The notes below the pieces were generated by a model. The model was not told the DNA's origin. It made no database searches and saw only the letters and a program-made list of their open reading frames with translations. Positions 1-15,971 of a stretch of DNA of 33,120 bases are shown piece by piece. Position 1 is the stretch's first letter. The number at the start of each line of letters is the position of its first letter. This DNA is from Candidatus Omnitrophota bacterium (lineage in GTDB: Bacteria; Omnitrophota; Gorgyraeia; Gorgyraeales; Gorgyraeaceae): positions 1 through 33,120 of the forward strand of contig JAUSEX010000008.1 of assembly GCA_030649895.1 (NCBI GenBank), written 5' to 3'. The position numbers and the translations under genes are program-made.

Positions 1-274
1 TGAGGATAGTAGTAAAATCTTTTAATACTTTCTCATAGTTAGTTTCTGTGATTAGGCCTGATTTGAGTAAAGCTGTTAGGCTATTGTAGGCTCTCGATGT
101 ACTATTTCCTGCGTACTGGGGGATTTCCTTGAGGATAGTAAAGATAGCTTCTCTATTTTGAGGAGTTATAACTCCGGATTGTTCTAGTTCTCCTAAAGAT
201 TCTTCTGCATGTTTAATGTAACCACCGCAGTATTTTTCTATCTCTTTAAAAATCGCTTTTTTCTGTTCATCTGT
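1..274 (-). repeat. Second copy of the 117-bp repeat block, downstream of the VWA domain
   Basis: Positions 1-85 and 10086-10170 are nearly identical, and positions 123-274 closely match 10440-10586. The encoded protein repeats the N-terminal pattern (IFKEIEKY, SGVITPQNRE, LKEIPQYAG, AYNSLTALLKSGLI), including the irregular NYEKVLKD unit. The block runs off the left edge, so the number of C-terminal units is unknown. Confidence 0.85.
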
Positions 275-3200
275 GAAGCTCCACGGTTTTATGGTTCGAC
301 TTCGCTCACCATCTTTCGAATCATTTTGAGCGAATCCCGAGCCAGCCCCATTCATCCCATGGGCTTTCTGGCGAGGGGTAAAAACTGTCTGGTTTGAGGC
401 AAGGGGCATAGACGCATCCTTTGTCTTTAAAACAGGGGTTTCTAAGCCTAATGCCTTGCTCAAATCTCCTAAAGGTAGATTCCCGCGCTGGACCTTTTCC
501 CTGGCAATCCTGATAAGTATATTCATAAGCTGGCTATCGTTCGGATCTTCGCCTAATAACAAATATCTGTTATAGCTTGTTACTTCTTTTGTTCCCACTC
601 CTATAAATATTACGTTAACACCATACTCTTCTTCAAAAGAATTAACCATTGTCTTAAGCTCTTCAAAGCTTTTACCAGAAGTCTCACCACCATCAGTGAG
701 AACTATGTGAAGCCTGTTTCCAGTAGGAATCACAGATTGTCCATATAACCTTCTTAATCCTGTTACAAGGCTCGCTGTATTAATTCCGCCAAAGTCATTC
801 TGCTGCCATAGGGCTTGGACAGAACCTCTTAAGATATCTTCTTTTTTACAATCGTCAAAACCAAAAACCCTGTGAAATTCTTCGCCTATAGCGCTCAAAG
901 AAAATCTTACACTAGAGGTATTCCTGCCTGCAACGTAAAGCAGGCTTTCAAAGAATTTGGTCATATTGGTAAACGCCTTTACCAGGGCTGGGCTACCTGC
1001 AATACTTCCACTTACATCCACAGTCACGCTCATATAAAGTGACGGCGTAGATTCTTCTATAATAGTTCTCTTAAATACCTTCTGGGACAATGTTATCCAT
1101 TTTCTTATATCAAGCCTCCTTCCTGAGGCAGCATGGACTTCCTCTTGTTTTGGTTCGCTGGCAAATATATCTATAAATTTTTTGGCAAAACTACCCAATT
1201 TCTGGTAATAGGTCTCAAGCCACCCTTTTTCTACTACAACGCCTTCCAGAGAGACCTCGCCTTCTTCTCCGCCGCCTTCTCCATTGCCTTCAAATTCTAC
1301 ACCCGGCATATCCTCTTTTTCTTTTGCGTCAGATTTAATCTCGACTTTTTGTTCTATTTCCTGCTGTTCATTTTGTTTGACCTCAACATCCGGAGGATTA
1401 GCTATGCCTTCTGTAAATTCGCTAATCGCATCGCCTCTTGCCTTGTCTGATTCGGATTTATACCTGCCTTTTTTAGCTGTAGAAAGATAATAATCTCCTA
1501 TAAATTTCTTTTCCCAGGCATCTTTGTATAACCTTATCCCTATTTTACTTATCAAGGTTTTATCGAGTACCGCAATCTTTTTATATATAGCATGTATATA
1601 CTCATCTTCAAAAGAATCTGTTATTTCCTTTATCTCCTGCAATTGAGAATCGCCTGGATTTTCTTCCTTTAATACCCTCAAGAATCCATTGAAGATGCCC
1701 TTTGCTGCCTGGCAATAATAAGAGCTGGCATCCTTATTTGAATTCAGTAAATACAGAAGTTCTTTTTCAACATATCTTTTATTATCTTTGGCAAAAATCA
1801 CCGGAAATAGCATGGAGAATAGCTCTATATTGGGATGCGAAGATATTTGCTCGCTAAGCGAGCGAATATGATCAACCAAATGGCCTATTTCATGATATCC
1901 TACCCAGGAAATAAGTTCGCCCTTTTCGGTTTGTCCCGAACTTGCTAATGTGGATTCCTCATAAATAAGCGCATAATTTTCGCCTTTAAAGACGCCCCGG
2001 GCTCTTTTTTCTTCCATAAACGGATGTCGTTCCACAACATAAGCCACAAGAGGGATTTTGTCCTTAAATCCGGTTGTCTCTATGCCTAATTCTTCAAGAT
2101 GCCCTTTTTCAATAAGCACCCTTTCTTTTATTTTTTCTGTTTCAACGAGGATAAACAACCTGTTATCTTTAAGTATCGGGAAAGAAAATATAAATCTATT
2201 TACAGCTTCATTAGTTAATACTTTTTTTCTAAGCTCCATCAATCTTTCTCTTACCCTGCTATAGTTTATTGAAGGCTGTAGGTATAAATTTACTATGTCT
2301 CTTAGGCATTCAAAAAGGTTATTGTCGATTGCGCTCGCTGTTTCGAGAACCATATAAGTCAAAGATTCTTTATCCCCATCTTTATACCATTTAATATTTC
2401 CTGCTCCATCGCTCAAAGCCAATAGATAATCCCTCAATATATTATCGAGAAAATATTGGTATCTTGAAACTCCGTCTTGAATAGAGCCAACTCTTTTCAA
2501 GCCTTCTGTTATCTTTTGGATACTATACTCAAAAGAAATGTCTTTTCTTATTGGCGTAACCATGTCTTCTTTCTTTGATTTGCCTGGTTCGGCAAAAGGT
2601 TTTCTTCTATCATAACGCGCATAGCCAGTGTCAGGAATTTTTAGCGGCTCTAATTTTATTACATTGAGGGCGTTATTTGTAAGTTTTTCGCTTTCAGCAG
2701 CATATGTCTCATCTTCTTGCGCGTCAGTCTCTAATTCTTTCATTTTTCTTTTATGCATGCCGAAAAGTATTGATACGAGGTCTTCTTTTTTTACCCTTTC
2801 TGATTCAAGATATGTGTGCAGGGCAGGGACCCATATCTTTAGGCCGTCTTCTATTATCTCCCATGGAAAACTCTTTCTGTCGCTATGAGTCTCGGGCGGG
2901 TTTCCGGCTATAAACAGGATCACTTCTGGATCAAGCTCTACTGTAAACTTTTCTCCGAATAAATAAAAAGTAAAATTCCTATCCCCTCTGAATAAAGGTT
3001 TGAGGCAATAGAGAATCTGAGGGCTAACATTTGCCTCGTCAAGGAAAAGTATCTTCCTGGTAGAATGCCTGTTTTTACCCGGTGGATAATAATATTCGCC
3101 GTTTATTTTACCTAAATCACTGAAGAATTCCTTTAATGAAAACAGGATTTTTCTCTCCTTGCCTTTCTGCGCAATGCCCATGCCGGCAAAAAGCGCGTCT

Positions 3201-6200
3201 GGTTCCATGTTGTCGTAACAGTGGAGTGTATGTAAAGGCGCTCCTGTTATGCGGCTTAAATTTCTTACTATAGTGCTCTTTGCCCCGCCTGTTTTACCCA
3301 TAAGTATTATTGGTAAAGGCGGCCTTTCTCTCCCGGTAGAATCCTCTACCCTGCGGCTTGCCCAGAATATAATCGACGCGGCCTCGTTGATCGCTCCTGT
3401 ATAATTTATATAATCCCTTCTTGGAACCTCTTCCGGAGGCAACCCGTAGTTAGTGTCTGTAGCAGAGTCTATCTGTCCTATAGATTTGATCATGCTAATA
3501 GACACCAAAAGCCCAGTTTTCTCCAGCCTTACCTTAAGTCCGCCTGAAAGCTCTGTCTCTTGGCTTAAGGAATCTTTCTTTATTCTGTATTTATTTATAG
3601 GCGTGCCTATTGCTATATACTCTCCTTCTTCTTTTATCCTAAATCCATTTGTAAGGGTAATGCCGTCATTTAATTCTTTTGGGCTGACTACTATATCAAC
3701 CCATTCCCTCTCCACCTCTCTAATCTTTGATTCTAATTCTTTTATGGTATTTTCGTCTATGCCTTCATATTTGAACACTTCCTCAAATAAAGCTCCAAAA
3801 TAGAGTTTTCTGTCAGAGGGTTTGTCCTTGCTGGATGTATCGTCCATGCCATTACCATATAATCTCAGAATACATGTTAAAACAGTCTTTACAGAATCTA
3901 CCTTCGCGGCATCTGCCTGACTCATCCTTTCCTGCACCACTAATTCAGCAAGCTTGTATACATCTTTTATGCTGAACCCGTATCTATAGGTAAATTTATT
4001 ACGGTCCAAATTGCAACCTACTCCATAGCGGCCCATATCAAGATACCACGCAGTTTTTGCCGCCCCATAGATCAGGGATTTTTCTTCCGTGCTTAAACCA
4101 GGGTAATATTTATCAAGATAAGTAAAGACCTCATCCCTTTCAATAACAGCTCCCAGGCCTATCTTCTGGAACCTGTTGTAAAACGGAGAAGAAAAACGCT
4201 TTTTCCTCAAGACAGATGTTTCAGCCACTATTCGCACATTACCGGGAAGCACATAATACTTGTCACCTATTCTTATCCTGCCTGTATTTAGAAAATCATT
4301 CAGTGATTCAAGCTCCTCGCTGGACATGGTGTCAATGGAAGATAAATACAAAATCTTGATAGGCTTATCTTGCGCTGTTTTTTCATCATATTCATCCTCT
4401 TTTATAAGATGCTCGCCTATAAATCCCAAGACAGTCCCCAGTTCGTCAGTGCTTTCAGCTGTGCCTTTCTGATTTAAATCTCCGAATTTAACCATTTGGC
4501 TGCCTAATAATTCCACTGAATTTACAAAAGGACTGCTATCAAATACAAATAACTCGCAGCCCATGGCCTGGGAGAAAAATCTAACGAGCTCCAGGGGGTA
4601 ACTGCCCTGTTCAGATAGTATTAGCGTATGCTGTTTTCCACCTGATAGGCTTAAGGCTAATGCCTTAAGAGAGGTTATCTGGGAAGAAACCGGTGTGAAG
4701 AAGTTTTCTCTCTCCGGATTTTCAAGTTTGACCTCTTTTCCTCTAAAATATACACTCCTTTCTTTCTGCCATGAGGTATAAAACTCTTTAAAACCCGGGA
4801 ACACTTTTTCTACGATGTCTATAGCTCGTTTTAAATCCGAAGGCGCGCTAAACTGAAAAAGATAATTAAGCAGTATGGCCTCAAATAAACTAATATGCCT
4901 ATTCACCAGCTCTGTTATACGTATTAATTCTCTCGGACTGACTCCGTATTGATAAGTATAAAGCTCATTAAATTCACTAAAACTAAAGCCTTTTACTTCC
5001 TCGGGGATATCACCTTTATAAGAATCCTTAAATTGTTCATCCATAATATATTTCATAAAAATGTGCAGTTTAATAAGCCGCCCTATGTCTTCTCGGGTCA
5101 TGGCATTTTTGTCTTTCAGATAATAATCAATAAGTTTTCTGTAACTTTCCTCTTTCCAGTTATCTGTAACGTATATTTTTTTAGCAAGCCAGAGAATCTC
5201 GAGAGGGATATCTTTTCTTTCCTTGGTAGTTTCCCATGGATTGATAGTAATAAACGCCTTAAAATCAGGATGAACGCTTATTAAATGCTCTCCTATCTTT
5301 ACGCCGTTATGGTATATGCCTAAATCTATTGGCTCTCCTCTTACGATCTGAGTAATAAAACTCATTGCCTCAATCGAAGCCTTGGAGATATTGGCTTCGT
5401 CAAAACACCAAACGCCCCCATTTTCCAAGAAATCCAGGAATTCGGAAAGAAACTTTCCTTCCTCTTTCCCGCATGTTATTTTGAACTTACTATGCCCGAC
5501 TCTTTCTATTTTCCCCAGGAATTCCCAGAGATCTATCTCCCTGTACATGGAAATCTTTTTAAACCTCAAGTTAAGCCTTTTGGCTATATCTTCAGCTATG
5601 GCGGTCTTTCCTCCGCCAGGAGGGCCTTCGAGTAAAATTAGTTTTCTGTCTTCCATATAGGCAGATAATATTGACTCATAAATTTCTAATACTTCGTCTA
5701 CTGGGCAAAGATAGGACTCTCTATGGCTAGAGGCTATATCAGAATAGCCTGTTTTATATTCCGCAAGGCCTACTTTTAAATAAATGCCTCCATTTTTTTG
5801 AATATACTCTAATGATGGAGGCGACCTAGGCATAAATGGTTCTCTCGCCTTATCGCTCAAACACATTCCTATTGTGTAATAAGCTATCTCCCCTATAACC
5901 TTTGCATCAAGATTATCCCTGGTCCTGAGTATCTGAGCTAAGTATTCGTCCAAATCACGCTTGCTTAATCTTATCTGGCTATGGTTCCCGTTTTCATATT
6001 CTTTGACATAAGCTTCGTATATAAGTTTTGCCTTGGAAATAACCTCTTTGGCTATTTCTCCTTTTACGTCTTCGATTCTTAATTTATCCCGTAAATATCC
6101 TTCAATCCAAAAACCTGACATTTCGTCAGGTAAAGCCACGCTCACCAGTCTTGATAATTCCGCGCCGCTCATAGGCAATTTATCATCATGAGAAGGCTCT

Positions 6201-9200
6201 TTTGTAATATAGGTTAACGCTATTATCCTGAGATTTTCAGGGATAACCGCAAACCTAGCGTCTACTAACCTGCCTTTATAAACACTCGCCACAGAGGGAG
6301 AAAGCTCTATCCTGCCTTCCTGCAGGGCTTTATTCAAGCCTATGGCTGTGTCTGGATTTAATTGATGAAAATTATCCAGGATAAAAAGATGTTCCTTGCC
6401 GGGATCTGATTCTGCCTGCTCAATTATCTTAAGAAGCGCTCCTTGAAATACGCCTAACTTGCCTTCCAAATCCACAGAAGTTTCACCTACAAGGTTTTCT
6501 AATTCTATAAAATCGCTCACGCTCATATAATGAGTAATGTTCTCTGCCGGCAGAGCTTCCTTTATTATCTCATATCCATCCCCTGCGGCATTTGAATGTA
6601 TGATCAAGTGCCCTAAGTTAGAGACGAGGGCATCTCTGATAAATCCCTTTATGTCTAAGTCTTCTTTTATCCATAAATCCATTTCCAGGAGCCTGGCCTT
6701 TATTTTTTCCTGCGGCTCTTTTTCCTGCCACATTAACCATAAACATGACTTTACTGCATTCTTAAAAGCTGTTTCGCTAGCCTGGCCTTTTGTTTTCTGA
6801 TAATATCTGAACATCTTGATAGTTCTTATGACGTCTCTTAATGTAAGCACCTGATATAATGATCTTATCTGGCCATTGGCCATATCCTTTTGCAAGAAAT
6901 AGTAAAGTTCGCCTAGGATAGCGCTATATTTATCTATCTCGTCTTTTGGCAGATTGTTGAAATGAATCCTGAATAACTCTTTTGTAAGTCCTATTATCTC
7001 CTGCTTGATGCCTTTCTGGTATTTTTCGTCCTCTTCGGAATAGTCATACCCCATCCAGAAGGCAGCGGAAAAATTTTTATTCTGCTGCGGAAATCTCTCT
7101 CTTGCTCTATAGTCATCAGGGTTTATGTCTGCTACGTAAATATTTCCGGAAGATATGGGGTTAACATAAAATGGTTCGCCGGTGCCTGGAGGCGCTGGTA
7201 TCTCAGGAAGAAGCCTTTTCCCAGCAAGGCTAAATTCAGGATAAAGCCAATATAATAAAGAGCCTTTGTACGATGTGTTTAATTCGCTGAAATTGATTAA
7301 ATAACCGCCTTCTCTTTCAGCCTTTAAAAATGGCGTATCGTTATGTATCTCCAAGCCTTCTTTGCCAGGAAAAACGCCGCCCCTGAATTCCTCCAATGCG
7401 CTTCGTTTATGCACCGTAAACCCAAGATTTTTATACCCTAATATTCTGGAAACTACCTGGCATAGCTGAGTCTTGCCTTCTCCGCTTACTCCTTCCAATA
7501 CAATTACCCTGCTAGCTGCCTCCTCTCTAAACGCCGCTTGCCTCACCAATTGGGAAATCAGCATTAAGTCTATGCCCCTTATTACATAGTCATAATCCTC
7601 TAAAACAATTTCAGAAAATTTCTTTCCAGGATTACTTCCTACGCTCGCAGCAAATTCCTCGCTTACCCCAATAGAAACGCCATCCGCAGTAAGCTTGCCA
7701 TTTCTTATCTCTATATGGCTGCGCTTGTATTCTTCAGGAATAGCTCCAAATAAGCTATTGAAAACTATGCCAAATTTTTTTCTGTCTTTCTGATACCTGA
7801 ATCTTAGATTAATATACCTATAGATTTCTTCTTTTAAGAACTCTATCTTTTCGCCTCTATTTTTAGCGTAAATAGCGATATTGACAAAATCCTGGGCGCT
7901 AAAGAAAAGGCCATGCTGTTTCCATGTCTCCTGACCAAGCTTAAAAAATAAATTAGACAACTCTCCTGCCCATTCCTCGCTGATCCCGTGCTTATTCACT
8001 AAGAGATTCTTAAAATCTTCTTCACTGAGCCCTCCTATTCTTTGCCTTAAGACCCTGTTTAAAAAAGCTTCGTCATGCACTTCACTAGACTCATCCATGC
8101 TGAATATAATATGCAGATTCTTTGGGACTTTGAATCTCTTATTAATCTCTGGAATAACAAAGGATTTTTCCCATAAAACAGGATTTAATTCCACCCTTAA
8201 ACTACCTTGCACAGCTTCTATGTTATCCAATACGAGATATATTGGGGTATTTGGATTAGCCGTTGCCCTTTCTGCCATCCGAGGTATTACTCCAAGGAGA
8301 AATCCAGGATTTCCTTGGTCGTCAGGAACGCTCATCCCGAAAAGATCCGAGCGTTCGCTAAAATAAGAAAGCGGTATTCTTACAACCTCTCCTTTTGTGT
8401 CTTGGCTAACCTTTTCTACTGCCTCCTCAAATGCCCTGTGACTGTTTCTGGATAAAATAAATAAACCTGGCTCAGACATCTCTACGCACCTGAGCATCGA
8501 ATAATACGCCCTTTGGTATGGCTGAACCCCCCAAAGTAAATTTTCTTCCTTTTCTTTATCAAGCGTGGTAAAACTTTCGTATAAAAGCTTTTCTATAAGG
8601 AGATCTATTTCTGCGCCCTTCAATGACTTCTCTCCAAGGGACAGCTTAACAAATATTGCAAAGTTCTTGCTTATGGATTCACGCAATATGCCTTTAAATT
8701 TATCGCTCTCTTCTCCAAACATGCCTCCATATATGGACAGGCAGGAAAGAATAAAATATTCCAGGGTATGTTTTATTTCCACGCCTCCCTCTTTTACGGA
8801 AGAAAGATACCATCTTATAAATTCAGCATGGAGCCTTATCTGCTCCCTGAAACTGGTAATCCACAAATCATCATTAGGATGATTTGTAGCGGCGTATTTC
8901 CTGATCATTTCATCTATGTCCAAGCTTAGATTTATCATCTCGATTATATCCGAGTCTGAGATATAAAAATCATCCCCTTTTAATGCATTCAAAATAGAAT
9001 AAACTAACGGGCTTTTTTCAAATCCTCCATAAGTTACCCTAGCCATAACCGACGGGTATTGCCTGTGAAGCCAGTTATAAAATAGGGGCTTCTTTTCTTC
9101 GCTAAGCGCTTCAGGTTGCGTTGATGCGGATTCTATTTCAAATTGTTGAATTTGAGATACTAACATATCAAGGTATTTGTTTATATTTTCTTGAGTTTTA

Positions 9201-10804
9201 TTTTTCGATATTTTATCTACCAGGTAAGCAGTAAGAAAGATTCTCATCTCTTTTAATTTAATTACCAAGGGATCTTTTTCTACATCGTCAACATTAAAAG
9301 ATGTTCTGCCGGTTAATTTTGTTATCAAGGTCCTTCTAAGCATGAATTGTTCTAATTCCATTGCAAAATTATAAACGCCTACATTACCCTGCGTCTGCGT
9401 ATTGCTGGCTGCGAATCTTGAGCGCAATTCTGCATACGAGGATTCTGCAATTTTTCCATCTGATGTGGAATTCAATAAAGCGCTTAGACTACCAGAAGAT
9501 CCTGGTCCTGTTTCTATTACCGGGTCTTTTACCCTGGCTAGGATAAAATCTCTTATTGCATCTAATGTGCCTTTTACGCCTGAGTCCTTATCTCCCTGCT
9601 TTATCATATTTAAAATCACCATTAGAGAATCTTGGTCCAAGAGCAGGTTCTTTTGTTTCATGAGTTTCAGTACATCTAGAAGAGAGTCATATGCCTTATG
9701 CGTGTCGCGATTTGCGTGCTGAGGGATTTCCTTGAGGATAGTAAATATTTCTTCCTGGTTAGTTTTTGTGATTAGGCCTGACTCTAGTAAAGCTATTAGG
9801 CTATTGTAGGCGCTACCTGTATTTTCTCCTGCGTACCGAGGGATTTCTTTGATGAGAGTAGATACTTCTTGTCGAATAGGTTTCGCAATTAGGCCTGGTT
9901 TTACTAAAACTGTTAGGCTATCGTAGGCGCTCGATGTATTGCTCCTTGCGTATTGGGGGATTTCCTTGAGGATAGCAAATACTTCTTCCTGAATAGTTTC
10001 TGTGATTAGGCCTGATTTAAGTAAAGCTGTTAGGCTATTGTAGGCGCTCGATGCATCCTTCCCTGCGTACTGGGGGATTTCCTTGAGGATAGCAGTAAAA
10101 TCTTTTAATACTTTCTCATAGTTAGCTTCTGTGATTAGGCCTGATTTTAGTAAAGCTGTTAGGTTATAGTAGACATTGTCTGTACTACTTCCTGCGTGCT
10201 GAGGGATTTCCTTGAGGACACTAAATAGTTCCTTTTGGTTAGTTTCTGTGATTAGGCCTGATTCTAGTAAAGCTCTTAGGCTATTGTAGGCTCTCCACGT
10301 ACTACTTTCTGCGTACTGGGGGATTTCATTGAGGACACTAAATAGTTCCTTTTGGTTAGTTTCTGTAATTAGGCCTGATTCTAGTAAAGCTTTTAGGCTA
10401 TCGTAGGCAAATATTGTAATGCCTTTTGCGTATTGAGGGATTTCCTTGAGGATAGTAAAGATAGTTTCTCTGTTTTGAGGAGTTAAGACTCCTGATTGTT
10501 CTAGTCCTCCTAAAGCTTCTTTTGTGTCTTGAATTAGGACACCACCATATTTTTCTATTTCTTTAAAGATCGTTTTTTTCTGTTTATCTGTAAAGACTGT
10601 TTGGTTAGAAACAAGAGCAGACATTGACTTGCCTCTTTTTTCGAGATTTAATGCCTCTTTAAATCTATTAATATTTTCTGATGAAGTTTGAAGCGGTGGC
10701 CTTAATTTGGTCTCAATAGAACAGGGATATACATTGCTGTTAACTAAAAATGAAATCAGCAGTATAAATGATATAGTTTTTTTAAATATTGTATCTTTTT
10801 TCAT
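1..10804 (-). CDS. Giant midasin-like six-AAA+ / HEXXH / VWA protein (partial, 3' end beyond window)
   Basis: Open frame of at least 3601 codons with no stop to the window edge. Numbering from the ATG at 10804; an in-frame ATG at 10813 is the alternative and is better spaced from a weak AGAGA. Residues 1-28: basic then hydrophobic signal-like segment. Residues 113 to about 385: seven 39-residue helical repeats. Then six AAA+ modules with Walker A or its remnant near residues 778 (degenerate), 1105 (GVSGEGKT), 1391 (degenerate), 1727 (GPPGGGKT), 2055 (degenerate) and 2503 (GKTGGAKS). HEIGH at 2971-2975, Glu-rich linker about 3136-3190, VWA with DVSGS at 3263, T3343 and TDGG at 3371, then a second repeat block. 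This order matches eukaryotic midasin (Rea1/MDN1), a mechanical ATPase that pulls assembly factors off complexes, minus its very long linker. MoxR plus VWA proteins are the nearest bacterial relatives known to me. Function and substrate unknown; a remodelling role is inference. Confidence 0.9.
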   Translation of the reverse strand, partial: MKKDTIFKKTISFILLISFLVNSNVYPCSIETKLRPPLQTSSENINRFKEALNLEKRGKSMSALVSNQTVFTDKQKKTIFKEIEKYGGVLIQDTKEALGGLEQSGVLTPQNRETIFTILKEIPQYAKGITIFAYDSLKALLESGLITETNQKELFSVLNEIPQYAESSTWRAYNSLRALLESGLITETNQKELFSVLKEIPQHAGSSTDNVYYNLTALLKSGLITEANYEKVLKDFTAILKEIPQYAGKDASSAYNSLTALLKSGLITETIQEEVFAILKEIPQYARSNTSSAYDSLTVLVKPGLIAKPIRQEVSTLIKEIPRYAGENTGSAYNSLIALLESGLITKTNQEEIFTILKEIPQHANRDTHKAYDSLLDVLKLMKQKNLLLDQDSLMVILNMIKQGDKDSGVKGTLDAIRDFILARVKDPVIETGPGSSGSLSALLNSTSDGKIAESSYAELRSRFAASNTQTQGNVGVYNFAMELEQFMLRRTLITKLTGRTSFNVDDVEKDPLVIKLKEMRIFLTAYLVDKISKNKTQENINKYLDMLVSQIQQFEIESASTQPEALSEEKKPLFYNWLHRQYPSVMARVTYGGFEKSPLVYSILNALKGDDFYISDSDIIEMINLSLDIDEMIRKYAATNHPNDDLWITSFREQIRLHAEFIRWYLSSVKEGGVEIKHTLEYFILSCLSIYGGMFGEESDKFKGILRESISKNFAIFVKLSLGEKSLKGAEIDLLIEKLLYESFTTLDKEKEENLLWGVQPYQRAYYSMLRCVEMSEPGLFILSRNSHRAFEEAVEKVSQDTKGEVVRIPLSYFSERSDLFGMSVPDDQGNPGFLLGVIPRMAERATANPNTPIYLVLDNIEAVQGSLRVELNPVLWEKSFVIPEINKRFKVPKNLHIIFSMDESSEVHDEAFLNRVLRQRIGGLSEEDFKNLLVNKHGISEEWAGELSNLFFKLGQETWKQHGLFFSAQDFVNIAIYAKNRGEKIEFLKEEIYRYINLRFRYQKDRKKFGIVFNSLFGAIPEEYKRSHIEIRNGKLTADGVSIGVSEEFAASVGSNPGKKFSEIVLEDYDYVIRGIDLMLISQLVRQAAFREEAASRVIVLEGVSGEGKTQLCQVVSRILGYKNLGFTVHKRSALEEFRGGVFPGKEGLEIHNDTPFLKAEREGGYLINFSELNTSYKGSLLYWLYPEFSLAGKRLLPEIPAPPGTGEPFYVNPISSGNIYVADINPDDYRARERFPQQNKNFSAAFWMGYDYSEEDEKYQKGIKQEIIGLTKELFRIHFNNLPKDEIDKYSAILGELYYFLQKDMANGQIRSLYQVLTLRDVIRTIKMFRYYQKTKGQASETAFKNAVKSCLWLMWQEKEPQEKIKARLLEMDLWIKEDLDIKGFIRDALVSNLGHLIIHSNAAGDGYEIIKEALPAENITHYMSVSDFIELENLVGETSVDLEGKLGVFQGALLKIIEQAESDPGKEHLFILDNFHQLNPDTAIGLNKALQEGRIELSPSVASVYKGRLVDARFAVIPENLRIIALTYITKEPSHDDKLPMSGAELSRLVSVALPDEMSGFWIEGYLRDKLRIEDVKGEIAKEVISKAKLIYEAYVKEYENGNHSQIRLSKRDLDEYLAQILRTRDNLDAKVIGEIAYYTIGMCLSDKAREPFMPRSPPSLEYIQKNGGIYLKVGLAEYKTGYSDIASSHRESYLCPVDEVLEIYESILSAYMEDRKLILLEGPPGGGKTAIAEDIAKRLNLRFKKISMYREIDLWEFLGKIERVGHSKFKITCGKEEGKFLSEFLDFLENGGVWCFDEANISKASIEAMSFITQIVRGEPIDLGIYHNGVKIGEHLISVHPDFKAFITINPWETTKERKDIPLEILWLAKKIYVTDNWKEESYRKLIDYYLKDKNAMTREDIGRLIKLHIFMKYIMDEQFKDSYKGDIPEEVKGFSFSEFNELYTYQYGVSPRELIRITELVNRHISLFEAILLNYLFQFSAPSDLKRAIDIVEKVFPGFKEFYTSWQKERSVYFRGKEVKLENPERENFFTPVSSQITSLKALALSLSGGKQHTLILSEQGSYPLELVRFFSQAMGCELFVFDSSPFVNSVELLGSQMVKFGDLNQKGTAESTDELGTVLGFIGEHLIKEDEYDEKTAQDKPIKILYLSSIDTMSSEELESLNDFLNTGRIRIGDKYYVLPGNVRIVAETSVLRKKRFSSPFYNRFQKIGLGAVIERDEVFTYLDKYYPGLSTEEKSLIYGAAKTAWYLDMGRYGVGCNLDRNKFTYRYGFSIKDVYKLAELVVQERMSQADAAKVDSVKTVLTCILRLYGNGMDDTSSKDKPSDRKLYFGALFEEVFKYEGIDENTIKELESKIREVEREWVDIVVSPKELNDGITLTNGFRIKEEGEYIAIGTPINKYRIKKDSLSQETELSGGLKVRLEKTGLLVSISMIKSIGQIDSATDTNYGLPPEEVPRRDYINYTGAINEAASIIFWASRRVEDSTGRERPPLPIILMGKTGGAKSTIVRNLSRITGAPLHTLHCYDNMEPDALFAGMGIAQKGKERKILFSLKEFFSDLGKINGEYYYPPGKNRHSTRKILFLDEANVSPQILYCLKPLFRGDRNFTFYLFGEKFTVELDPEVILFIAGNPPETHSDRKSFPWEIIEDGLKIWVPALHTYLESERVKKEDLVSILFGMHKRKMKELETDAQEDETYAAESEKLTNNALNVIKLEPLKIPDTGYARYDRRKPFAEPGKSKKEDMVTPIRKDISFEYSIQKITEGLKRVGSIQDGVSRYQYFLDNILRDYLLALSDGAGNIKWYKDGDKESLTYMVLETASAIDNNLFECLRDIVNLYLQPSINYSRVRERLMELRKKVLTNEAVNRFIFSFPILKDNRLFILVETEKIKERVLIEKGHLEELGIETTGFKDKIPLVAYVVERHPFMEEKRARGVFKGENYALIYEESTLASSGQTEKGELISWVGYHEIGHLVDHIRSLSEQISSHPNIELFSMLFPVIFAKDNKRYVEKELLYLLNSNKDASSYYCQAAKGIFNGFLRVLKEENPGDSQLQEIKEITDSFEDEYIHAIYKKIAVLDKTLISKIGIRLYKDAWEKKFIGDYYLSTAKKGRYKSESDKARGDAISEFTEGIANPPDVEVKQNEQQEIEQKVEIKSDAKEKEDMPGVEFEGNGEGGGEEGEVSLEGVVVEKGWLETYYQKLGSFAKKFIDIFASEPKQEEVHAASGRRLDIRKWITLSQKVFKRTIIEESTPSLYMSVTVDVSGSIAGSPALVKAFTNMTKFFESLLYVAGRNTSSVRFSLSAIGEEFHRVFGFDDCKKEDILRGSVQALWQQNDFGGINTASLVTGLRRLYGQSVIPTGNRLHIVLTDGGETSGKSFEELKTMVNSFEEEYGVNVIFIGVGTKEVTSYNRYLLLGEDPNDSQLMNILIRIAREKVQRGNLPLGDLSKALGLETPVLKTKDASMPLASNQTVFTPRQKAHGMNGAGSGFAQNDSKDGERSRTIKPWSFTDEQKKAIFKEIEKYCGGYIKHAEESLGELEQSGVITPQNREAIFTILKEIPQYAGNSTSRAYNSLTALLKSGLITETNYEKVLKDFTTIL
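275..379 (-). mobile_element. 105-bp in-frame palindromic insert in the giant gene
   Basis: The C-terminal repeat block reads SNQTVFT, then 35 extra codons, then DEQKKAIFKEIEKY. The N-terminal block reads SNQTVFT directly into DKQKKTIFKEIEKY, so it supplies the empty site. The insert is visibly richer in G and C than its surroundings, has imperfect inverted ends around TTCGCTCA, and is flanked by TTTAC and TTCAC (minus strand), a possible target duplication. It shares the 12-mer GAGCGAAGTCGA with the palindrome at 24709-24760. It preserves the reading frame. Confidence 0.75.
470..1398 (-). other. Glu-rich linker and VWA (MIDAS) domain of the giant protein
   Basis: About residues 3136-3190 are rich in Glu, Gln and Gly (VEVKQNEQQEIEQKVE, EGNGEGGGEEGE). 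The following VWA domain has the complete MIDAS set: DVSGS (D3263), a threonine in GGINTAS (T3343) and an aspartate in VLTDGGET (D3371). These residues bind a divalent cation and a partner acidic residue in integrin-type VWA domains and in midasin. The pairing of acidic linker and MIDAS domain is as in midasin. Confidence 0.85.
1880..1894 (-). other. HEXXH zinc-peptidase-like motif in the giant protein
   Basis: Residues 2971-2975 read HEIGH, preceded by ISWVGY and followed by LVDHIRSL. A glutamate lies 18 residues after the second histidine (E2994, in HPNIELF), the spacing of gluzincin-type HEXXH-X18-E peptidases. It sits between AAA6 and the acidic linker. Zinc binding and proteolysis are inferred from the motif only; a structural helix with a chance HEXXH remains possible. 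Confidence 0.55.
2645..8527 (-). other. Six tandem AAA+ modules of the giant protein
   Basis: Approximate modules by residue: AAA1 760-1010, AAA2 1080-1330, AAA3 1375-1620, AAA4 1700-1960, AAA5 2030-2270, AAA6 2480-2720. Walker B in AAA4 (FDEAN, D1802) and AAA6 (LDEAN, D2589) is intact; AAA2 keeps the glutamate (FSELN, E1174) but not the aspartate. AAA1 (LDNIE, D860) and AAA3 (LDNFH, D1477) keep only part of Walker B and lack Walker A. AAA2, AAA4 and AAA6 carry midasin/MoxR-like sensor-1 NP dipeptides (INPDD, INPWE, GNPPE). AAA5 has neither Walker motif (SEQGSYP, YLSSID). Boundaries are my estimates from motif spacing of roughly 290-450 residues. Confidence 0.8.
9655..10468 (-). repeat. Seven tandem 117-bp (39-residue) repeats, N-terminal block
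   Basis: Each unit encodes two predicted helices around the conserved pieces LKEIPQYA and AYNSLTALLKSGLI. Six repeat intervals span 714 bases from the unit start at 10468 to the one at 9754: six times 117 plus 12, because the third unit has four extra residues (NYEKVLKD region). Units are still very similar at DNA level, which implies recent expansion or ongoing homogenisation. They resemble HEAT/ARM-type solenoids in size and pattern, but I cannot assign them to a named family. Confidence 0.85.
10721..10804 (-). other. Signal peptide or N-terminal membrane anchor of the giant protein
   Basis: The first 28 residues have lysines at 2, 3, 8 and 9 followed by a hydrophobic core (TISFILLISFLV), then NSNVYPC. 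The cysteine context (VYPC) is not a canonical lipobox, so type I cleavage or an uncleaved anchor is more likely than a lipoprotein. Export would place ATPase modules outside the cytoplasm, which is hard to reconcile with their intact Walker motifs. Confidence 0.6.
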
Positions 10805-10834
10805 ATATATCATACTTTTACAATCTCTTTATTA

Positions 10835-12013: not shown

Positions 12014-13097
12014 ATGCATTCAATCTCTCTATAATTGCATCTGCCATCTGACTTGTGCCAACGCTGGTAGAATCATTGCAATCTTTTTTTAAATCATAGG
12101 TAACGTATTTGCCTTCAGCTATTACTTCTTCCGTAGCTTTTTCCAGCCTATCCGCTGCATCATTTTCGCGTAAATAGCGAAGCATCAATACGCCTGAAAG
12201 TATCATAGCGGTAGGATTTACTTTATCCAGCCCTGTGTATTTCGGGGCGCTGCCATGAACAGCTTCAAATAAAGCCATGCTATCCCCTATGTTTGCTCCC
12301 GGAGCTATCCCTAGCCCACCTATTAATCCAGCGCATAAGTCCGACAATATATCCCCGTATAAATTTGGCAACACAAGCACATCGTATAATTCCGGCTTTT
12401 GAACCAGCTGCATGCACATATTGTCAACTATTCTATCTTCAAACTCTATCCTGCCCTTGTATTCCTCGGAAACATCTCTTGCGCACTTCAAGAAAAGCCC
12501 GTCTGTTTCTTTCATTATATTCGCCTTATGAATGGCTGTGACTTTACGCCTATTATTTTTAACAGCGTAATCAAAAGCGAATTTTACAATTCTTTTGGAC
12601 GCGCTTATGGAAATAGGCTTTATACCTATAGCGGAATCCTTTTTTATAGCTATGCCGCTTAATTCCTCTAAATTATCTATGATATCCTGGGTCCTCTCTA
12701 ATCCCTGGCTGAATTCTATTCCGGCATACAGGTCTTCGGTATTTTCTCTGACTACCACGAGATCTATATTCGTATATCTACTTTTTACGCCTTTTATTAA
12801 CTTGCACGGCCTTAAGCACGCATACAGATCCAGGGCTTTTCTAAGCTGCACATTTACCGACCTGAAACCTTTCCCTACAGGCGTTATAATAGGCCCTTTT
12901 ATAGCCACCTTGTTCCTTCTTATGGAATCCAGGACATTTGCAGGTAAAACTGTCCCGTATTTAGCAATAGCCTCCTCGCCCGCTATTTGCTCTTCCCATG
13001 CTATTTTAACGCCCGTAGCGTCGATGCATCTTTTCGCAGCGAAACTTACTTCTCTTCCTATGCCATCGCCTGGGATCAATGTGACTTTATGGTTCAA
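12012..13097 (-). CDS. icd: Isocitrate dehydrogenase, probably NADP-dependent
   Basis: Oxidative decarboxylation of isocitrate to 2-oxoglutarate. The 361-residue protein belongs to the isocitrate/isopropylmalate dehydrogenase family. Isocitrate rather than isopropylmalate specificity is shown by S80 and N82 (RSVNVQLRK), followed by R86, R96, R117 and Y124 ([10 protein letters not shown]). Metal-binding aspartates are in YGDILSDL. The cofactor loop reads GSAPKYTG (K285, Y286) and VTYDLKK (Y334, K338), close to the NADP-binding Lys-Tyr and Tyr-x3-Arg of E. coli Icd; NAD-type enzymes usually have Asp in the first position. It overlaps leuD by 11 bases, implying translational coupling. The shorter length than E. 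coli Icd (about 416) is usual for this subclass. Homoisocitrate dehydrogenase is a less likely alternative. Confidence 0.85.
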
Positions 13098-13587
13098 TTT
13101 TCAGCCCCCCGTATTTTTTGTAATAATTCACTATACCACCGATTTCCACGAGACTTTTCTGAAATTTTGTAAAAGGCTTTATGCGCAAAGTATACTGTTT
13201 GTCCGGGCCCACAACAACGCCTTTTTCAATATCAACCTCTATTACATCTTCTTTTTTTATCTTATCAGTATCGCACTCTACCAAAGGCAGGCCAAGATTA
13301 AAAGCATTTCTATAAAATATCCTCGCAAAACTTTTAGCGAGAACTGCGTGACATCCTGCGTATTTAAGCGCCATTGGAGCCTGTTCCCGGGAAGACCCGC
13401 ATCCGAAATTAGTGCCGGCTATTACAAAAAATTTATCCCCGCCGATCTTTTTGTAAAAATCCGGCTCGATATCCTCGAATACATGCATTGCGAGCTGATG
13501 AGGGTCTGTTATGGAGAATTTATACCTGCCGGATATAATCAAATCCGTATTGATATCATTGCCAAATTTATAAGATATGCCTTTCAT
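13087..13587 (-). CDS. leuD: LeuD/aconitase-family small subunit
   Basis: Swivelling small subunit of a two-subunit hydro-lyase (isopropylmalate isomerase, homoaconitase or aconitase-like). The 166-residue length fits the HACN/archaeal-type LeuD. The substrate-carboxylate motif GCGSSRE is present at 63-69 ([16 protein letters not shown]). The specificity loop, normally YLRT in homoaconitase-type or YLVY in isopropylmalate-type subunits as I recall them, reads YKFSITDP at 22-29, so the substrate is uncertain. The gene overlaps icd and lies 63 bases after pilT, with its LeuC partner just before pilT. Shine-Dalgarno GAGG lies 8 bases before the ATG. With icd and mdh adjacent and no leuA or leuB in view, a cis-aconitase role is plausible but unproven. 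Confidence 0.8.
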
Positions 13588-13611
13588 CGCAAAACCCTCA
13601 TTTTGGCTTAA

Positions 13612-13650
13612 GGTTCGAGGCTCCAGGAATTTTTCCTTCAGCCTGGAACC
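13612..13650. repeat. Hairpin between pilT and leuD
   Basis: Arms GGTTCGAGGCT and AGCCTGGAACC pair at 10 of 11 positions, and an inner stem AGGAA/TTCCT closes a 3-base loop. The hairpin abuts the pilT stop codon. No U-tract follows on the minus strand, so an intrinsic terminator is unlikely; an mRNA-stabilising hairpin or a palindromic repeat fits better. Confidence 0.55.
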
Positions 13651-14697
13651 CTACAAATTCCTTACTTCATCCGGATTCCTTATGTATGTTTTAAAAACAT
13701 CTTCCGCGATAAGTCCTTTTTGATAAAGCACTTTCAAAGACTTGTCCATTGTATGCATGCCAAGCTGTCCGCTTGTCTGAATATGCGTCAGAAGCTGTTC
13801 TGTTTCATGCTCGCGGATAAGATTTCTGATTGCGTTTGTGGCAATCATCACCTCTGTCGCAATAACCCTGCCCGGCCTGTCTCTCCTGGGCAATAGCTGC
13901 TGCGAAATAACCCCCTGCAAAGTAGTAGAAAGCTGTATCTTTATCTGCTCCTGCTGATAAGGAGGAAAAACATCTATAATCCTGTCTATTGTCTGGGACG
14001 CGTCAGGGGTATGCAATGTCGCCAACACAAGATGGCCTGTCTCCGCAGCCGTAAGAACAGTGGCTATTGTCTCCATGTCCCTCATCTCGCCGACTATTAT
14101 TACATTAGGATCCTGCCTTAACGCATGTATCAGCGCGTTCGAAAAAGACCTGGTGTCGGAAAAAACCTCTCTTTGTTTTATTATGCTGCGCTTATTTACA
14201 TGCACATACTCTATGGGATCTTCTACCACTATAATAATTGCCTGGCGTTCTGTATTTATCAGGTCCAGCATTGCCGCAAGCGTTGTAGTTTTACCGACTC
14301 CGGTAGGGCCTGTAACAAGAACCAGCCCCTGGTTTTTACGACAAAGCTCTGCCACAACGGGAGGTAACCCCAGTTCGGCAATAGTCCTTATTTTCAATGA
14401 CACCAGCCTGAAAGCAGCCTCAACGCTTCCTCTCTGCATATGTACGTTTACCCTGAACCTGTTCAAACCAGGAACATCAAGAGATAAATCTAATTCCAGG
14501 TCTCTTTCAAAAATAGCCTTTTGCTTATCGTCCAATATGCTGTACACCAGCCTCTTGCAAGCCTCCTTGTCCAGCTTTGGAAAATTCAAAGGTATTAATT
14601 TTCCATCCATTCTTATTATAGGAGCTGACTCTGCTGTAATATGCAGATCTGACGCATCTTTTTCAACAGCGGCTTTCAGAAAATCTCTTATATCCAT
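13651..14697 (-). CDS. pilT: Twitching motility ATPase PilT
   Basis: Hexameric ATPase that retracts type IV pili at the inner face of the cytoplasmic membrane. The 348 residues match the family length. An N-terminal PAS-like domain (SDLHI, about 16-20) precedes the RecA-like core with Walker A GPTGVGKTTT (130-139), Asp box VEDPIEYVH, Walker B VIIVGEMRD and His box GHLVLATLHT. The C-terminal QQLLPRRDRPGR region is also typical. It sits between the LeuC- and LeuD-type genes, 14 bases after the former, so it is probably cotranscribed with unrelated metabolic genes. No other pilus genes are in the window. PilU is a possible alternative name. Confidence 0.93.
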   Translation of the reverse strand: MDIRDFLKAAVEKDASDLHITAESAPIIRMDGKLIPLNFPKLDKEACKRLVYSILDDKQKAIFERDLELDLSLDVPGLNRFRVNVHMQRGSVEAAFRLVSLKIRTIAELGLPPVVAELCRKNQGLVLVTGPTGVGKTTTLAAMLDLINTERQAIIIVVEDPIEYVHVNKRSIIKQREVFSDTRSFSNALIHALRQDPNVIIVGEMRDMETIATVLTAAETGHLVLATLHTPDASQTIDRIIDVFPPYQQEQIKIQLSTTLQGVISQQLLPRRDRPGRVIATEVMIATNAIRNLIREHETEQLLTHIQTSGQLGMHTMDKSLKVLYQKGLIAEDVFKTYIRNPDEVRNL

Positions 14698-14711
14698 AGG
14701 TATCCTTTGGG

Positions 14712-15971
14712 TTATCCTACGTATTTTCTTGGATCTGTAATCTTGCCTTCCAGAGCTGAAGCTGCCACTGTAGCGGGAGAGCCAAGATAAATAAACGCAT
14801 CCGGGTTGCCCATCCTGCCTTTGAAATTTCTATTAGCGGTTGAAATGCAGATCTCTCCATTGGAAAGAACCCCGTTATGAGTCCCCACGCACGGCCCGCA
14901 TCCTGGCGTAACTACGCACGCGCCTGACTTTACAAATTCTGATATTATGCCCTTTTCTATCGCCTTCTGAAAGATATCTTTTGAAGCAGGCGCGATTATC
15001 ATCTTTACGTTCTCATTTATCTTCCTGTTTTTTAATATAGAATGCGCTATCACAAGGTCTTCCAGCCTGCCATTGGTGCATGTGCCCAAAAACGCCTGGT
15101 CAATCTTTGTCTTTTTCAGTTTATTTACCGGCGTAACATTGTCTACGGTATGAGGCCTGGCTATCTGCGGAGTAATCTTGCTCACATCAAACTCAAGGAC
15201 TTCTAAATATGTTGCGTTTTTATCGCTTTTTATATTTTTCCCCTTCCCCTTTAAGCCTTGAGCCTTGAGCCAGCCATATGTTTTCTCGTCCGGCTCCATC
15301 AACCCTGCCTTTGCTCCCATTTCAATCACCATATTAGCTATGGTAAAACGGGCATCCATGCTCAAGCTGGTTATATATTCTCCTGAAAACTCTACCGCCT
15401 TATATGTAGCGTAATCAGCGCCCAGCTTTCCTATTACATAAAGTATCACGTCTTTTGAATAAACACCTTTTTCAGCTTTGCCCTTAAGGATTATTTTTAT
15501 AGTCTCAGGCACCTTAAACCAATTTTTTCCGGTAGCAAGCGCTACTGCAACATCCGTAGAGCCCATGCCCGTTGAAAAAACTCCAAGCGCCCCATATGTG
15601 CATGTATGAGAATCAGCTCCTACTACCAGGCCTCCCGGCATGACAAGCCCGGCTTCAGGTATTACCTGATGACAAACTCCGCAGCCAATATCAAATATCT
15701 TAAGAGCATGCTCTTTTGCAAAATTTCGCATCTTCTTATGCACCTCTGACACCCCTATGCTTGGACTTGGAGCGCTATGGTCTATAACCATGCGAAATTT
15801 ATCTTTATCGAAAACTTTTTTTGCGCCAAGATTCCTGAATGCGTCTATAACAAGCATGCTGGTCCCGTCCTGGCCAAAACAAAAATCTATATTTGCGACC
15901 ACCACTTCCCCGGCCTTTACATCTCTGTTGCTATGCGCGCTGAATATTTTTTCTACTACAGTCTTACCCAT
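14712..15971 (-). CDS. leuC: LeuC/homoaconitase-family large subunit
   Basis: [4Fe-4S] hydro-lyase large subunit that isomerises a 2- or 3-hydroxy tricarboxylate through a dehydrated intermediate. The three cluster cysteines are C298 (FLGTCTNGR), C358 and C361 (TPGCGPCVGTHNG). Other family blocks are VIDHSAPSP, CGVCHQVIPE and GADSHTCTYGALG. At 419 residues it is the short HACN/archaeal type rather than the roughly 465-residue E. coli LeuC. It starts 9 bases after the aminotransferase gene and its small subunit is encoded one gene further on. Whether it makes 3-isopropylmalate, homoisocitrate or isocitrate cannot be read from the sequence; adjacency to icd favours isocitrate. Confidence 0.83.
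   Translation of the reverse strand: MGKTVVEKIFSAHSNRDVKAGEVVVANIDFCFGQDGTSMLVIDAFRNLGAKKVFDKDKFRMVIDHSAPSPSIGVSEVHKKMRNFAKEHALKIFDIGCGVCHQVIPEAGLVMPGGLVVGADSHTCTYGALGVFSTGMGSTDVAVALATGKNWFKVPETIKIILKGKAEKGVYSKDVILYVIGKLGADYATYKAVEFSGEYITSLSMDARFTIANMVIEMGAKAGLMEPDEKTYGWLKAQGLKGKGKNIKSDKNATYLEVLEFDVSKITPQIARPHTVDNVTPVNKLKKTKIDQAFLGTCTNGRLEDLVIAHSILKNRKINENVKMIIAPASKDIFQKAIEKGIISEFVKSGACVVTPGCGPCVGTHNGVLSNGEICISTANRNFKGRMGNPDAFIYLGSPATVAASALEGKITDPRKYVG

Follow-up and report, generated by a model that had tools for sequence, protein, structure and literature searches.

The window, the whole stretch of 33,120 nucleotides analysed here, corresponds to the entire contig C26, which belongs to a genome of 1.68 Mb that is 98% complete; window base 1 is the first base of the contig. 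It begins within a giant open reading frame on the minus strand (10813..2), which runs for 3604 stop-free codons and is still open where the contig ends. Bases 1-112 of C26 are the exact reverse complement of C15:1-112, with the same reading frame across the overlap, and the frame carries on into contig C15 to a stop at C15:2602-2604, affording a full product of 4434 amino acids; since the join sits inside a repeat, the number of C-terminal repeats is provisional. The uninterrupted giant frame reported in the original prediction was thus confirmed, and the extension of the contig that it had proposed supplied the 3' end. Furthermore, compared with a relative 58-60% identical, codon positions 1, 2 and 3 differ at 0.32, 0.24 and 0.58, indicating that the frame is under selection. 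The features are as follows (window coordinates, strand).

2..10813, minus: giant ORF, residues 1-3604 of the 4434-aa protein; the rest lies on C15 (locus L009:113-2604, plus strand), joined by the 112-base exact overlap.
10718..10804, minus: Sec-type signal peptide or signal anchor, MKKDTIFKKTISFILLISFLVNSNVYPCS (hydropathy test and relatives' N-termini).
9494..10621, minus: repeat block 1, 117-bp (39-aa) helical repeats, residues 65-440 (TRF period 117, 6.3 copies).
8654..9016, minus: candidate lid-like helical domain upstream of module 1, WITSFREQIRLHAEFIRWYL...IYGGMFG, residues 600-720 (hhalign).
7814..8551, minus: AAA+ module 1 (M1), no P-loop, arginine finger R920 kept (AAA_5 8e-4; hhalign to M5 1.8e-14; R in 12/12 relatives).
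6644..7621, minus: AAA+ module 2 (M2), active type, GVSGEGKT K1114, Walker B Glu E1177, no arginine finger (AAA_5 0.02).
5744..6628, minus: AAA+ module 3 (M3), no P-loop, arginine finger R1555 kept (AAA_5 0.007; hhalign to M5 2.8e-14; R in 12/12).
4724..5716, minus: AAA+ module 4 (M4), active type, GPPGGGKT K1736, DEAN E1806, no arginine finger (AAA_5 4.3e-6; PDB profile midasin 6.8e-61).
3734..4711, minus: AAA+ module 5 (M5), no P-loop, arginine finger R2214 kept (SSPFYNRF; PDB profile match to midasin only, 2.9e-13).
3488..3709, minus: small beta domain in the M5-M6 interval, residues 2369-2442 (AlphaFold2, local pLDDT about 80-85).
2714..3436, minus: AAA+ module 6 (M6), active type, GKTGGAKS K2512, DEAN E2593, no arginine finger (AAA_5 1.8e-9; PDB profile midasin 1.2e-34).
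1511..2521, minus: linker containing a well-predicted globular domain with HEIGH at residues 2974-2978 and, further downstream, a conserved N-x-E (pLDDT mostly 80-91).
1229..1393, minus: short stretch rich in Glu and Gly, residues 3141-3195 (13 acidic residues among the 40 of 3141-3180).
464..1042, minus: VWA domain with complete MIDAS D3266-x-S-x-S (DVSGS; D3266, S3268, S3270), T3346 and D3374 (Pfam VWA 2.6e-8).
2..415, minus: start of repeat block 2; blocks 2-4 run on in C15 up to the stop.

The domain order is therefore signal peptide, helical repeat block, lid-like region, six AAA+ modules, HExxGH linker, acidic stretch, MIDAS VWA domain and three repeat blocks.

The neighbours of the giant gene on C26 are ordinary bacterial genes, including those for ribosomal protein S3, SecY, RpoA, aconitase and dehydrogenases, as are those on C15 (lipoamide-dehydrogenase-type, ArgS, SurA-like and PdxA). 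An ORF with the catalytic part of aconitase (14712-15971) and another with its C-terminal part (13087-13587) flank a gene for a PilT-like type II/IV secretion ATPase (13651-14697; the whole spans window 13087-15971). Named relatives of the giant protein come from MAGs of Candidatus Omnitrophica, including one in the same genus as the window, and from one MAG labelled Chlamydiae, which places the host in Omnitrophota. A genome-wide scan of contigs with profile A1 gave four loci only. The fact that C26 terminates within the giant gene, at a repeat, would suit an assembly or binning artefact, either eukaryotic contamination or a chimeric contig. However, the same contig carries the bacterium's ribosomal protein operon along with its secY and rpoA, the artefact reading of the part in the window has already been refuted, and the same core is present in independent MAGs from other sites, so that such an origin is scarcely conceivable; eukaryotic contamination in particular was rejected, as the bacterial ribosomal operon adjoins the giant gene.

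We then examined the six tandem AAA+ modules that had been claimed for this chain. When searched singly against Pfam, five of the six matched AAA_5, M2 and M3 weakly, and M5 gave no match. Since the 10-member profile of M5 finds midasin, and M5 aligns end to end with both M1 and M3 (hhalign 1.8e-14 and 2.8e-14), the chain indeed contains six AAA+ modules in all, of which M1, M3 and M5 are degenerate paralogues and only M2, M4 and M6 carry a P-loop. The hhalign comparison of the M5 and M4 profiles was disregarded, as it aligned overlapping sequence only. With the whole chain as query, Pfam returned generic AAA, VWA and spurious helix-repeat matches only, and NCBIfam and PADLOC gave nothing above cut-offs apart from the P-loop. 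Assignment to ternary MoxR-VWA conflict systems or known defence systems was also rejected, because the PADLOC matches are short and confined to the P-loop and the neighbours are housekeeping genes.

The live and dead modules alternate strictly. Among 12 relatives, down to about 20% identity, the Walker A Lys of M2, M4 and M6 is kept in 36 of 36 cases, as is their Walker B Glu (36/36), and the finger Arg is likewise kept in M1, M3 and M5, which have no P-loop (36/36); an Arg occupies the finger position of M2, M4 and M6 only once in 36. All 12 members have Ser or Asn in place of the Walker B Asp of M2, and turnover at this site may therefore be slow. If the protein were a degenerate giant with a structural or adhesive role that had lost the motor function of its AAA+ modules, the lack of a P-loop in three of six modules would be accounted for, and an adhesin role has been proposed for giant proteins of Omnitrophota (PMC10066038). 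Nevertheless, the full conservation of the P-loop Lys, the catalytic Glu and the arginine fingers in complementary modules at about 20% identity makes this very unlikely. The simplest reading of the motifs is instead three composite ATP sites, each pairing a P-loop module with the arginine finger of the dead module that follows it. In Rea1, AAA5 provides the finger for the AAA4 site, so that site n takes its finger from module n+1 (PMC6286127). By this rule the M1 finger could serve M6 only; that it is strictly conserved speaks for a closed ring, and we infer that the ring closes through module 1.

The predicted structure, which the original prediction had proposed as a check for a six-module pseudo-hexamer, gave a partial answer. 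In AlphaFold2 models built on 4-5 sequences (mean pLDDT 55-57), ring closure was not seen, and module 2 was also poorly modelled. Foldseek with both low-confidence models gave long collinear matches to dynein motors, and with the M1-M4 model an additional match to Rea1 (2.1e-12). These matches support tandem AAA+ folds rather than a closed ring.

We also characterized the domains flanking the AAA+ core. Repeat block 1 belongs to the same family as the three blocks downstream of the VWA domain. For the region before M1, the family alignment matched the N-terminal lids of a second family of giants (family B, below) by hhalign with E=1.3e-4 and a probability of 54%, which is no more than suggestive of a lid-like domain at this position in the family of the window protein (family A); the three closest members alone gave no significant match. 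The linker after M6 contains the HEIGH domain, a putative zinc metallopeptidase fold. Its HExGH motif is invariant in close-relative alignments and was found in 7 of the 11 members reaching that far. The HExxGH domain has no matching Pfam family, and its identification as a DUF2201 metallopeptidase was not supported, as neither family A nor family B gave such a Pfam match. The domain also occurs outside the giant ORFs, in proteins of about 1150-1220 aa from several Omnitrophota genomes (L083, L084, L119, L120), which match that part of the profile only, with 104-117 bits. M6 and the VWA domain are spaced by about 560 aa, including the HExxGH domain and the 55-aa acidic stretch. The predicted Glu-rich linker is thus present as an acidic stretch, but a short one, far from the long D/E region of midasin. 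The complete MIDAS set of the original prediction stands, its positions being shifted by +3 since they had been counted from the second ATG, and a DxSxS or DxSxT motif occurs in all 11 members reaching the VWA domain. The signal peptide, the HEIGH domain, the 39-aa repeats on both flanks, the arginine-finger pattern and the restriction of P-loops to M2, M4 and M6 go beyond what had been noticed earlier.

Next to these features, kinship with midasin was assessed by profiles and trees. Against the PDB, the M4 profile matched midasin with 6.8e-61, a sum over seven stretches that flatters midasin because several of its modules are added up, and the next family was NorQ (3.8e-9); M6 likewise matched midasin (1.2e-34) and then NorQ (1.3e-7), and the M5 profile from 10 relatives matched midasin alone (2.9e-13). 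For all three modules midasin ranks first, far above NorQ, CobS/CbbQ and dynein, dynein being far lower or absent. The claimed domain order and midasin kinship were borne out. When midasin modules are taken one by one, M4 reaches at best 44.5 bits locally, M2 40.6 and M6 31.9, and the single-domain score of NorQ for M4, 39 bits, is close to these.

The module tree that had been called for gave a divided result: midasin goes with other giants of the phylum, families B and C, and the active modules of family A stand apart from it. In the 76-row tree that includes outgroups, the family-A modules M2, M4 and M6 group together (99/98), with a separate subclade for each position, and the deep base is not resolved; in the tree lacking outgroups, midasin clusters with families B and C (100/99) rather than with A. 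AU tests rejected the pairing of A2, A4 or A6 with midasin modules in all nine combinations tried, in several registers (p 0.0002-0.031), which rejects position-by-position orthology with midasin for the window protein. In addition, none of the Pfam midasin lids PF17867, PF17865 and PF21108 was found in the window protein, whereas they are present in family B. The separate clade, the AU rejections and the lack of midasin lids thus count against the suspected direct bacterial counterpart of midasin at this locus. By sequence, the window family appears to be of midasin's kind and architecture rather than its module-by-module counterpart.

Much closer relatives of midasin are encoded in other genomes of the phylum (E=1.8e-148, with Pfam midasin lids). 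The giant ORF L021 (L021:3-12026, G014:C16) comes from a different genus within the window's bacterial family. Its six-module product of at least 4008 aa has all six P-loops intact and three families of Pfam midasin lids (8e-33, 2e-9 and 9e-9). The whole protein scores 499 bits to Mdn1, dynein not being among the matches, and a single module matches all six midasin modules, the best with 118 bits versus 76 for dynein and 56 for CobS. L021 is, as its sequence indicates, closer to midasin than the window protein is, and the suspicion of a bacterial midasin counterpart thus holds for other Omnitrophota genomes. Transmembrane segments separate modules 2 and 3 of L021. Families B (L021, L073, L075/L076) and C (L077, L081, L082) both show odd/even module pairs three times over, the odd and even modules forming separate clades, and AAA2/4/6 of midasin likewise form one clade. 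In family B, a lid precedes module 1, but module 6 is not followed by one. Similarly, Rea1 is reported to lack the AAA6 lid and to have an N-terminal domain in its place (PMC6286127). Among 384 genomes sampled in the phylum, 30 gave a match to the family-A profile and 9 to a midasin lid model; the lid was found in none of 14 well-known control genomes, and viral contigs, phages and plasmids contained no six-module homologue, only single-module CobS/MoxR-like proteins.

Several other giants show further variations. The family C ORFs carry AAA+ pairs with GxTAGGKS and GQSGGGKT and long inserts in the odd modules. Large inserts with repeated beta-propeller-like motifs, xVRLWxKxGxxW, lie inside or beside dead AAA+ modules in L071 (module 3, G215) and L069 (before module 5, G190). 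L087, from the MAG labelled Chlamydiae, is an ORF of at least 5976 aa that has the same core at 44% identity with copies of a membrane block on both sides; in both L087 and the window protein, the core lies between copies of one repeated unit. L050 (G138:C9:63936-64283), an ORF of 35,009 aa, matched the family-A profile (A1) only marginally (3.9e-4), in its linker/VWA part.

The window protein might be a fast-evolving member of a true orthologous line, or even stand for the direct ancestor of midasin, the ring having arisen once and being shared with eukaryotes. The same domain order, the first rank of midasin for the M4, M5 and M6 profiles, and the midasin lids of the closer relatives, permuted as in Rea1 (before M1, none after M6; PMC6286127), would speak for this. 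On the other hand, the active modules form their own clade, nine pairings with midasin were rejected, and the active sites are 2, 4 and 6 as opposed to 2-5 in Rea1. Long branches and possible concerted evolution could hide common descent, but orthology is weakened and we consider it unlikely.

The alternative fusion origin, a MoxR-type ring joined independently to its VWA partner, was retained in part: a separately elaborated single-chain MoxR/midasin-type ring fits better. Ordinary MoxR proteins of the same genome score below 15 bits against these profiles, which weighs against an ordinary MoxR/VWA pair fused into one cytoplasmic protein that acts on a metalloenzyme or membrane complex, with the signal peptide as an uncleaved anchor and the ring on the cytoplasmic side. 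This would agree with the general theme of MoxR-clade AAA+ proteins with VWA partners (PMC7159879, PMC13036017) and with the c-region of the window protein, a poor cleavage site. However, the positive-inside topology of the N-terminus predicts that the chain lies outside, and good cleavage sites occur in several relatives, so that this version is rather unlikely.

Indeed, signal peptides were found at all eight complete N-termini (the window protein, two in G210, and one each in G190, G308, G215, G323 and G071), as compared with 2 of 32 neighbouring genes, one of which encodes SecY. Complete giant ORFs L068, L069, L070, L071, L076, L079 and L112 start with a signal peptide, with clear cleavage sites in several (AHAQ, GFAQ, VRAY, LAAG, GFAN), and L112 (family A, G210a) and L076 (family B, G071) have in common an IHIQDAHxxYxAQ...EGG stretch after it. 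Because ATP is normally absent outside the cytoplasm, an ATP-driven ring would be hard to explain there; it might be accounted for by an anchor of unusual topology, by activity inside a host or prey cell, or by another nucleotide supply. For Omnitrophota, host-dependent traits have been reported, together with giant ORFs of few annotated domains and poorly understood roles (PMC10066038). It is conceivable, though doubtful, that the exported six-module AAA+/VWA giants of families A, B and C and midasin derive from one ancestral ring and that the bacterial proteins do their work beyond the cytoplasm, drawing for instance on the ATP of a host or prey cell on or inside which they act. If so, midasin has bacterial relatives of the same architecture.

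Taken together, we favour, with a probability of about 0.6, a single-chain mechanochemical ring of the MoxR/midasin type at the cell envelope, in which a trimer of dimers with three composite ATP sites remodels a client with the help of a docking VWA domain. The six AAA+ modules would assemble into a pseudo-hexamer, in which M2, M4 and M6 bind and hydrolyse ATP while M1, M3 and M5 bind none and supply arginine fingers. The composite sites would be 2/3, 4/5 and 6/1, as in F1-ATPase but within a single polypeptide, and the need of the M6 site for the M1 finger would close the ring. After M6, the linker with its metallopeptidase-like HExxGH domain would carry the MIDAS VWA domain, which, by analogy with Rea1 and NorQD, may dock on the ring while its metal binds an acidic residue of the client; ATP turnover would then pull or remodel this client. 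As the VWA domain is not C-terminal and the acidic linker is short, the Rea1 geometry may not apply. The helical repeats that flank the core on either side probably serve to bind a partner or a surface, and the signal peptide would export the chain or anchor it at the envelope. Most likely, by analogy, the protein works like midasin, with a client held by the MIDAS domain and moved or remodelled by a single-chain ring.

Single-chain six-module AAA+ rings have been described from eukaryotes, namely dynein and midasin. In searches of the open text of PubMed Central, no bacterial single-chain six-AAA+ VWA protein was found, in agreement with the original statement that no such example was known. 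Nor was a description found there of a midasin-like single-chain design in bacteria in which every second module is dead and an export signal is present. A bacterial family of the same architecture makes the origin of midasin testable. The alternation of dead, finger-giving and live, ATP-binding modules is a natural experiment on the division of labour in AAA+ rings and predicts exact residue pairs. Furthermore, part of the giant genes of Omnitrophota, whose roles have been called obscure, thereby gains a concrete biochemical hypothesis, and in view of the signal peptides it is possible, odd as it seems, that an ATP-driven machine operates outside the cytoplasm.

Among known systems, cytoplasmic dynein heavy chain also has six tandem AAA+ modules in one chain and gave the top Foldseek matches of the low-confidence models, but it has no VWA domain and lies far below midasin, or is absent, in sequence profiles. 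NorQ/NorD, CbbQ/CbbO and RavA/ViaA combine an AAA+ ring with a MIDAS VWA partner, NorQ ranking next after midasin for M4 and M6; they are, however, separate proteins with homo-hexameric rings and six sites alike, whereas the window protein is a single chain of unlike modules. F1-ATPase consists of three catalytic/non-catalytic pairs whose arginine fingers come from the non-catalytic partner, but differs in fold class, rotary function and separate chains. VWA8 unites AAA+ modules and a VWA domain in one chain (PMC10743472), but has been described with two AAA+ domains and from eukaryotic mitochondria. The family B giants share the six AAA+ modules in three pairs, the HExxH-type domain, the acidic linker and the VWA domain, and L076 also the signal peptide; they differ in their six intact P-loops, Pfam midasin lids and 499 bits to Mdn1. 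Midasin (Rea1/Mdn1) itself is a eukaryotic ribosome maturation factor that removes the UBL-domain factors Rsa4 and Ytm1 from pre-60S ribosomes; to our knowledge, bacteria lack these clients. It is the best-scoring solved relative of M4, M5 and M6 and has the same six AAA+ modules in one chain, followed by a linker, an acidic stretch and a MIDAS VWA domain. Its active sites are AAA2-AAA5 (PMC6286127), compared with 2, 4 and 6 only in the window protein, and its D/E-rich linker is long and helical, about 1700 aa (PMC11603028), whereas that of the window protein is shorter and contains the HExxGH domain. Unlike midasin, the window protein is bacterial, starts with a signal peptide and continues with repeats after the VWA domain, which is thus not the last domain of the chain.
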